Source: Phytoactinopolyspora halotolerans (GTDB lineage: Bacteria > Actinomycetota > Actinomycetes > Jiangellales > Jiangellaceae). Taken from it: DNA of 64,000 nt. A model generated the notes under the pieces. It had not been told where the DNA came from and ran no database searches. It worked only from the letters and a program-made list of their open reading frames with translations. Position 1 is the stretch's first letter, and each line of letters begins with the position of its first letter. The position numbers and the translations under genes are program-made. Location of the stretch: contig NZ_JAAGOA010000007.1 in the NCBI RefSeq assembly GCF_010550675.1, forward strand, positions 124,001 to 188,000, written 5' to 3'. This document shows, piece by piece, positions 6,296-7,649 of this stretch.

Positions 6296-6321
6296 TTGCC
6301 GGCTGCTCGGGGTGCTACACT
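6296..6321 (+). promoter_or_regulatory. Promoter of the aromatic leader transcript
   Basis: A -10 box TACACT at 6316-6321 lies 7 nt before the leader-peptide GTG. A -35-like TTGCC lies at about 6296-6300. The spacing puts the transcript start at or next to the GTG, so the leader peptide would be translated without a ribosome site. Confidence 0.5.
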
Positions 6322-6328
6322 CCACGGC

Positions 6329-6397
6329 GTGGTGAGAGTTCGTTGGTATCGGCGCTTTACGCCGGCTCCGGGTGGAGCCGGTGGCGGCGCAGGCTGA
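6329..6397 (+). CDS. Aromatic amino acid leader peptide (Trp-Tyr-Arg-Arg-Phe)
   Basis: Tiny open frame of 22 codons starting GTG GTG and ending TGA: MVRVRWYRRFTPAPG followed by a Gly/Ala-rich tail. The run W-Y-R-R-F puts all three aromatic amino acids within five codons, which is improbable by chance in so short a frame. An intrinsic terminator follows at 6422-6447, then the gene for DAHP synthase, the first enzyme of aromatic synthesis. This is the classic layout of ribosome-mediated attenuation. The peptide itself needs no function. Confidence 0.75.
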   Translation: MVRVRWYRRFTPAPGGAGGGAG

Positions 6398-6417
6398 CCA
6401 ACCACTCACCCGGAGCC
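6331..6417 (+). promoter_or_regulatory. Alternative RNA pairings of the aromatic attenuator
   Basis: Two competing helices can be drawn. One pairs GGTGAG (6331-6336) with CTCACC (6405-6410) and GTTGGT (6342-6347) with ACCAAC (6397-6402), burying the Trp codon. The other is an 11-bp perfect helix, GGCTCCGGGTG (6364-6374) with CACCCGGAGCC (6407-6417). They share bases 6407-6410, so only one can form at a time, and ribosome position on the leader would decide which. How this is relayed to the terminator at 6422 is not clear by eye. Confidence 0.55.
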
Positions 6418-6421
6418 AGAA

Positions 6422-6447
6422 GGCAGAGACCTCGCGTCTCTGCCTTT
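6422..6447 (+). terminator. Intrinsic terminator of the attenuator
   Basis: Perfect 9-bp hairpin GGCAGAGAC-CTCGC-GTCTCTGCC followed directly by TTTCGT. It lies 25 nt after the leader stop codon and 80 nt before the DAHP synthase start, so it can switch off expression of the gene. Confidence 0.75.
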
Positions 6448-6527
6448 CGTCATTTCAGGCGGACGGCCTGGGTGAGCTTCGCGGACGTTCCGTCTGATCC
6501 CATCAGAGAAGGAACGGAACCCGCGAC

Positions 6528-7649
6528 ATGTCCCAGCCAACGCAGCAGTCCTCCGCCGAGTCACGCGACGACGCCGCACACTCCCACGGTGCCGGCAGCA
6601 CCGGCGACCTGCGCGTCACCGGCTTCCAGCCGCTCACGCCGCCGCGCGACCTGCTGACCGAGCTGCCGCTCGACGACACCCACGCCGAATTGGTCCGCCG
6701 TACCCGCGCCGAGGTCCGCGACATCGTCACCGGCGCGGACGACCGGCTGCTCGTCGTGGTCGGCCCGTGCTCCGTGCACGACCGCGACGCCGCGCTCGAC
6801 TACGCCCGCCTGCTCGCGCCGGTAGCCGACCGGCTCGGCAGCGATCTGCGGATCGTCATGCGGGTGTACTTCGAGAAGCCGCGAACGACGGTGGGCTGGA
6901 AGGGCCTGATCAACGACCCCGGCCTGGACGGCTCCTACGACGTCCAGCGCGGCCTGCGGATCGCCCGCGAGCTGCTGTTCGACGTGCTCGGCACCGGCCT
7001 GCCGGTGGGCTGCGAATTCCTGGAGCCGATCAGCCCGCAGTACATCGCCGACACGGTCTCCTGGGGCGCGATCGGCGCCCGCACGCCGGAGAGCCAGGTC
7101 CATCGCCAGCTGGCGTCCGGCCTGTCGATGCCGGTCGGGTTCAAGAACGCCACCAGCGGCGACGTCCAGGCCGCCATCGACGGGTGCGTCGCCGCCGCGC
7201 ATTCGCACGTCTTCTTCGGCGTCGACCACGACGGGCGGGCCGCCGCCGTCTCCACCGTCGGCAACCCGGACTGTCACGTCATCCTCCGGGGCGGGCAGAC
7301 CGGCCCCAACTACGGGCCGGACGACGTCCGCGACGCGCTCTCCCTGCTGCAGAAGGCGGAGCTGCCGGAACGGTTGGTGATCGACGCCAGCCACGGCAAC
7401 AGCGGCAAGGACCATGTCCGGCAGGCAGCCGTCACCCGGGAGATCGCCGGCCAGATCGCCGCCGGTGAGAACGGCATCGCCGGCGTCATGCTGGAGAGCT
7501 TCCTGGTGGAGGGCAGGCAGGACATCGGCGGCGAGCTGACCTACGGTCAGAGCGTCACCGACGCCTGCATGAGCTGGCAGACCACCGAGGAGCTGCTCGA
7601 CGTGCTGGCCGCCGCGGTCCGGTCCCGACGCGCGACCCGAGTCTCCTGA
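6528..7649 (+). CDS. aroG: 3-deoxy-7-phosphoheptulonate synthase (DAHP synthase), class I
   Basis: Condenses phosphoenolpyruvate and erythrose-4-phosphate, the first committed step of the shikimate pathway; cytoplasmic. The 373-aa product has the class I (E. coli AroF/G/H-like) landmarks: VVVGPCSVHD with the metal-binding Cys, RVYFEKPRTTVGWKGLINDP, GARTPESQVHRQLASGLSMP, DASHGNSGKDH with the metal His, GVMLESFL with the metal Glu and SVTDACM with the metal Asp. It is slightly longer than the E. coli enzymes because of an N-terminal extension of about 25 residues rich in Ser, His and Gly. AGAAGGA lies upstream of the ATG. Expression is probably controlled by the leader-peptide attenuator upstream. 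Class II enzymes are more usual in actinomycetes. Confidence 0.95.
   Translation: MSQPTQQSSAESRDDAAHSHGAGSTGDLRVTGFQPLTPPRDLLTELPLDDTHAELVRRTRAEVRDIVTGADDRLLVVVGPCSVHDRDAALDYARLLAPVADRLGSDLRIVMRVYFEKPRTTVGWKGLINDPGLDGSYDVQRGLRIARELLFDVLGTGLPVGCEFLEPISPQYIADTVSWGAIGARTPESQVHRQLASGLSMPVGFKNATSGDVQAAIDGCVAAAHSHVFFGVDHDGRAAAVSTVGNPDCHVILRGGQTGPNYGPDDVRDALSLLQKAELPERLVIDASHGNSGKDHVRQAAVTREIAGQIAAGENGIAGVMLESFLVEGRQDIGGELTYGQSVTDACMSWQTTEELLDVLAAAVRSRRATRVS

Follow-up and report, generated by a model that had tools for sequence, protein, structure and literature searches.

A probable leader-peptide attenuator of an actinobacterial DAHP synthase gene, with a switching RNA segment and no antiterminator found in its homologs

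Aromatic amino acid synthesis begins with DAHP synthase, whose reaction is the committed step towards Trp, Tyr and Phe as well as towards many actinobacterial natural products. In the DNA of Phytoactinopolyspora halotolerans that was analysed here (the window, 64,000 nucleotides), a gene for this enzyme is preceded by a short open reading frame with aromatic codons and by a hairpin, which raises the question of whether and how translation of the leader could control the gene. An initial annotation had proposed a leader-peptide attenuator at this site. The gene behind it is indeed assigned to TIGR00034 (Table 1), and leader, terminator hairpin T and gene recur together in relatives. The neighbors of the DAHP synthase gene, an amidase gene upstream and a gamma-glutamyltranspeptidase gene downstream, both lie on the other strand, so that the leader and DAHP synthase appear to form a separate unit. 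The element is likely to control the stand-alone DAHP synthase gene by ribosome-mediated attenuation, through a switch between the segments R2, R4 and R5.

Table 1. Features of the leader region and the DAHP synthase gene, in window positions.
Feature	Positions	Strand	Basis
-10 promoter hexamer TACACT	6316-6321	+	TAnnnT at the same place in homologs
Putatively leaderless leader ORF MVRVRWYRRFTPAPGGAGGGAG, 22 codons, stop TGA 6395-6397	6329-6397	+	Peptide family across Actinobacteria
R1, partner R3	6336-6347	+	-11.1 kcal/mol; sister-swap p = 0.004
Control codons TGG TAT CGG CGC TTT (W Y R R F)	6344-6358	+	Leader ORF, homolog leaders
Local hairpin R2a:R2b within the leader ORF	6360-6383	+	Folding
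R2, 12 bp with R4	6364-6375	+	Homolog z -4.2; compensatory changes
R3, partner R1, directly past the leader stop codon	6397-6406	+	Folding, sister-swap contrast
R4, switch segment, pairs with R2 or R5	6405-6417	+	Folding, covariation
Terminator hairpin T; tail UUUCGUCAUUU runs to about 6455	6419-6447	+	Folding, covariation
R5, pairs with R4 around T	6465-6476	+	z -3.0 in the window; p = 0.004
R6:R7 hairpin with Shine-Dalgarno AGAAGG inside	6479-6526	+	-23.4 kcal/mol; window z -3.76
Class I (aroFGH-type) DAHP synthase	6528-7649	+	TIGR00034, E 1e-150

The leader start and its aromatic codons

The first GTG of the leader lies 7 nt past TACACT, as had been annotated, with the GTG at 6329 and the hexamer ending at 6321. 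Actinobacterial -10 boxes have the form TAnnnT (PMC8079986). Of 122 distinct homologs, 119 have such a hexamer ending 6-9 nt ahead of an in-frame start codon of the leader, while 8.6 would be expected from shuffles, and the gap is exactly 7 nt in 97 of the 122. A Shine-Dalgarno-like stretch precedes the leader start in only 11 of the 119 homologs with TAnnnT, and no match to a -35 box was found. The spacing kept in 119/122 homologs bears out the proposal that the leader is translated without an untranslated region in front of it, and leaderless translation is strongly supported at the sequence level. The RNA would thus start at the leader GTG or within one base of it, such that the ribosome begins at the 5′ end.

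A common pattern, (W)Y(W/R)RF..APGGA with variants, runs through the peptides of homologous leaders. Trp, Tyr and Phe are all present in 94/119 homolog leaders, and Tyr and Phe only in 18/119. In the window's own family, the control stretch contains Trp in 5 of 19 leaders and lacks it in the other 14 (e.g., RRYPYF), while Tyr and Phe are mostly kept. The suggestion that three amino acids are read in one leader is weak on these grounds, and also given that only Phe limitation is reported to act in Corynebacterium glutamicum (PMC11802643); joint sensing of Trp, Tyr and Phe is not firmly indicated by these sequences. The leader codons are strongly biased in addition. TAT encodes 125 of 135 Tyr residues in homolog leaders (TAT:other = 125:10) and TTT encodes 120 of 138 Phe residues (TTT:other = 120:18). 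With five genes of the window as the codon-usage reference, TAC:TAT is 30:3 (TAT for 3/33 Tyr) and TTC:TTT is 59:1 (TTT for 1/60 Phe). TAT and TTT, rare in these GC-rich genomes, are thus almost always chosen for leader Tyr and Phe; slow codons or an RNA constraint could explain this bias.

A switch segment with two partners

The R2:R4 helix (6364-6375 with 6406-6417, -27.2 kcal/mol) and the R4:R5 helix (6405-6417 with 6465-6476, -23.6 kcal/mol) compete with each other, and bases 6407-6410, named before as shared by two alternative helices, are common to both. Complementarity between R2 and R4 has a mean shuffle z of -4.2 in 122 homologs, every one of them below -1.5. For R4:R5 the mean z is -1.72, with 62% of the homologs below -1.5 and the window at -3.0, while the controls, R1, R2 and R3 against the downstream region used for R4:R5, give -0.15 to -0.26. 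The helices were additionally compared by sister-swap contrasts, i.e., contrasts between nearest relatives that allow for shared ancestry, in eleven tests in all. These were significant for R2:R4 (p 1e-4), R4:R5 (p 0.004), R1:R3 (p 0.004), R5:R6 (p 0.002) and R6:R7 (p 0.004), and not for R2:R5, R1:R5, R5:R7, R1:R4 and R3:R6. One control was not flat, R3:R5 (p 0.01), probably due to R3 bordering R4.

The initial annotation had pointed to homologous leaders as the place to look for covariation; there, R2:R4, R4:R5 and T do covary, with controls that are mostly flat. In R2:R4 and T, 8 pairs are changed on both sides, with 31 cells vs 7.8 in shuffles. For example, GGCTCT in R2 is matched by AGAGCC in R4 in Catellatospora, and in one family CTTCAGAGCC in R4 is matched by GGTTCTGA in R5. 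R1:R3 is to be regarded as a general helix with caution only, its complementarity being weak (mean z -0.74 in homologs, -0.16 in the window), although its swap contrast is positive.

Folding of the window sequence gives the same two states. Without a ribosome, the fold consists of R1:R3, R2a:R2b, R4:R5 with T inside it, and the hairpin that holds the Shine-Dalgarno sequence. Once the RNA up to 6354 is removed, which mimics a stalled ribosome, R2:R4 forms flush against T. The predicted probability of R4:R5 falls from 0.51 to 0.09 with R2 free. The gap between R2:R4 and T is 0-3 nt in 114/121 homologs. Covariation and folding together support that R4 switches between R2 and R5.

These elements suggest the following sequence of events. 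With plentiful aromatic aminoacyl-tRNA, the ribosome would pass R2 and halt at 6395, where R2 cannot reach R4. With R2 kept from R4, T would form and the RNA would end prematurely near 6447-6455; in read-through RNA, R4 would then pair with R5. With uncharged Phe or Tyr tRNA, and perhaps Trp tRNA, the ribosome would stall on W-Y-R-R-F, covering R1 and exposing R2, and R2 would take R4 in a 12-bp helix flush against T. The stalled state would raise DAHP synthase expression, a direction that is taken from aroR of Corynebacterium glutamicum.

Relatives and known attenuators

Relatives were searched for with a covariance model built on the core from leader to terminator. Of the 20 genomes in the window's family, 19 contain the element; the remaining one has an N run at the expected leader site. 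The model matches in 72/394 genomes of the class, some of the weakest matches being likely due to chance, and in 110/301 genomes of the family that contains Mycobacterium-like genera and Corynebacterium-like genomes. Among the loci from a DAHP synthase search are those of Streptomyces, Glycomyces, Catellatospora, Isoptericola, Mycobacterium, Gordonia, Williamsia, Dietzia and Tsukamurella. Of 151 elements, 134 are followed by a class I DAHP synthase gene, with starts that were assigned automatically in the homologs and of which some are wrong. To judge from the sequences of these relatives, the leader, the two competing helices and T are conserved far beyond chance.

Several other arrangements were observed. 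In three loci the element stands before a fusion of type I-beta DAHP synthase and chorismate mutase (L234:970-1944, L235:1074-2078, L236:287-1360), an enzyme type other than that of the window, and in one a model match with a leader Tyr codon lies ahead of tyrosyl-tRNA synthetase (L238:702-1904). A similar leader with Tyr/Phe codons is found ahead of an AzlC-type permease in three more loci, which suggests that this permease may be an aromatic amino acid transporter. Six proteobacterial DAHP synthase loci have aromatic leaders of their own, for example MSAKFYFYFFWYLRPLADREG in Burkholderia, with a hairpin and a T run behind them. Finally, a subtype with Y-F/W-W-F..PAPGG, seen in ten loci, lacks T and retains R2, R4 and the R4:R5 hairpin GAGCCGG..CCGGCTC; a GGGTCGG segment ahead of the Shine-Dalgarno sequence could also pair with R2 in this subtype. 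Leaders without T occur in Rhodococcus, Nocardia, Amycolatopsis and Pseudonocardia.

The closest known system is that of C. glutamicum, where the aroR leader, which has Phe-Tyr-Phe and was detected by RNA-seq, lies ahead of aroF (PMC4046766). According to PMC11525245, aroR attenuates aroF, at the level of transcription, when Phe is present, and in PMC11802643 only Phe limitation is reported to act, Tyr being without effect; the primary source, as both papers cite it, is Neshat et al., 2014. As in the window, aromatic codons are clustered in a leader before DAHP synthase, with F-Y-F in C. glutamicum vs W-Y-R-R-F in the window, a comparison in which aroR enters by its description only. Corynebacterium-like genomes share the layout of R2:R4 and T with the window, and one covariance model finds both. 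Their loci ahead of aroF match with E 2.4e-14 to 4e-6, and the leaders before aroF, MRMWRFYFSKAPEAVTT and MRMWRFYF, contain RFYF. Weaker matches at three loci in a Corynebacterium-like genus are without DAHP synthase and look like chance. An aromatic-codon leader ORF lies directly ahead of the DAHP synthase gene, and a single sequence-structure model points to common descent with the Corynebacterium elements. By way of the Corynebacterium-like genomes, the window element is very probably of the kind represented by C. glutamicum aroR.

The trp, leuS and ilvB attenuators of Streptomyces and Corynebacterium (PMC1262725; PMC8079986) resemble the window element in having a short, often leaderless ORF, regulatory codons and a terminator. 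The window element differs from these in having no antiterminator that overlaps a terminator arm. The 2005 survey of Actinobacteria by Seliverstov (PMC1262725) found no RNA structure conserved ahead of operons for Phe or Tyr, and a list of eight leaders in S. lividans contains no DAHP synthase leader (PMC8079986). In the LEU element, which precedes leuA in Actinobacteria (PMC1262725), leader codons likewise pair with downstream RNA, and in LEU as well as in the window (R1:R3 with R2:R4) crossing helices allow a pseudoknot or alternative pairings. However, the Leu codons of LEU pair with the leuA Shine-Dalgarno sequence and there is no terminator, whereas R1 in the window pairs beside the stop codon, with 6397-6406, a terminator follows, and the Shine-Dalgarno sequence is located in R6:R7.

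From ribosome position to expression

Two rival explanations have little in their favor. In one of them the leader encodes a nascent-chain arrest peptide and APGGA is kept for its amino acids. This could account for a conservation that extends far past the aromatic codons, but the APGGA codons are R2 and their base changes are matched in R4, so that the conservation is explained by RNA pairing, and an arrest peptide is very unlikely. The other is a metabolite-binding riboswitch or protein-binding leader that acts independently of translation. The compact and very stable fold of the leader would suit it (6329-6530, -106.9 kcal/mol, z = -5.3, with none of 200 dinucleotide shuffles equally stable). 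Nevertheless, Rfam searches of the element returned chance matches only, even at E 10, with no riboswitch or T-box at gathering score; the leaderless start, the ORF and the rare aromatic codons are all conserved. Such a leader is extremely improbable.

The terminator with a T-rich tail that had been annotated ahead of the gene is found, but its stem is computed to have 12 pairs instead of 9 (6419-6430 with 6436-6447, loop 6431-6435, -21.5 kcal/mol); the tail UUUCGUCAUUU is moderately U-rich and is missed by a strict U-run scan. Leader ORF, regulatory codons and an intrinsic terminator between leader and gene are thus all present, as in a classical trp-type attenuator, in which the stalled ribosome allows an antiterminator helix to capture the 5′ arm of T, and C. 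glutamicum aroR acts at transcription. The annotated switch, for which no clean antiterminator had been drawn, nonetheless lacks support for this helix. Duplex tests with both arms of T, masked-ribosome folding and extension of the R2 flanks revealed no antiterminator in 122 homologs. The 5′ arm is not complementary beyond chance to segments that lie upstream of it (mean z +0.55 to -0.17, vs -4.8 for the control, T5:T3), its sole partner being its own 3′ arm, and extension of R2:R4 into it gives z about 0, equal to shuffled sequence. Moreover, T is predicted to form with a probability of about 0.93-0.96 in every ribosome-masked state, whether R2 is available or not, which means that equilibrium folding gives no regulation at T. 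A trp-type switch is therefore unlikely. Since the 5′ arm of T has no partner and R2:R4, which is predicted to leave T unsequestered, lies flush against it, either R2:R4 would act on termination by contact or control would pass to translation. Control could also be mainly translational, with T setting a low basal level: R2:R4 would free R5, R5 would capture R6, and the Shine-Dalgarno sequence would leave R6:R7. Complementarity of R5:R6 (z -1.44) and R6:R7 (z -1.17) vs the control R5:R7 (0.02), as well as the swap contrasts of both helices, are in line with this, as are the rise of predicted R5:R6 from 0.157 to 0.377 with R2 free, before R7 is made, and the Rhodococcus/Nocardia/Amycolatopsis-type leaders that keep R2, R4 and R5 without T. 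Against it, equilibrium accessibility of the Shine-Dalgarno sequence is unchanged (0.395 vs 0.406, p 0.48), R5:R6 is rare in the window (0.03) and the stability of R6:R7 does not differ between the two states. A relay to the Shine-Dalgarno sequence is hinted at, and the folding model does not predict that it opens this sequence; mainly translational control is rather unlikely. A more novel reading, less likely than not, is an attenuator that works without an antiterminator, in which R2:R4, formed once the leader ribosome stalls and flush on an intact T, may block termination or may relay through R4:R5, R5:R6 and R6:R7 to the Shine-Dalgarno sequence.

The element, which matched no Rfam, Pfam or NCBIfam entry, would represent a widespread control of the DAHP synthase step and of further aromatic genes. 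If the absence of an antiterminator is true, a different coupling of ribosome position to termination or translation would be needed, and the homologs are a ready test set for such an antiterminator-free coupling.
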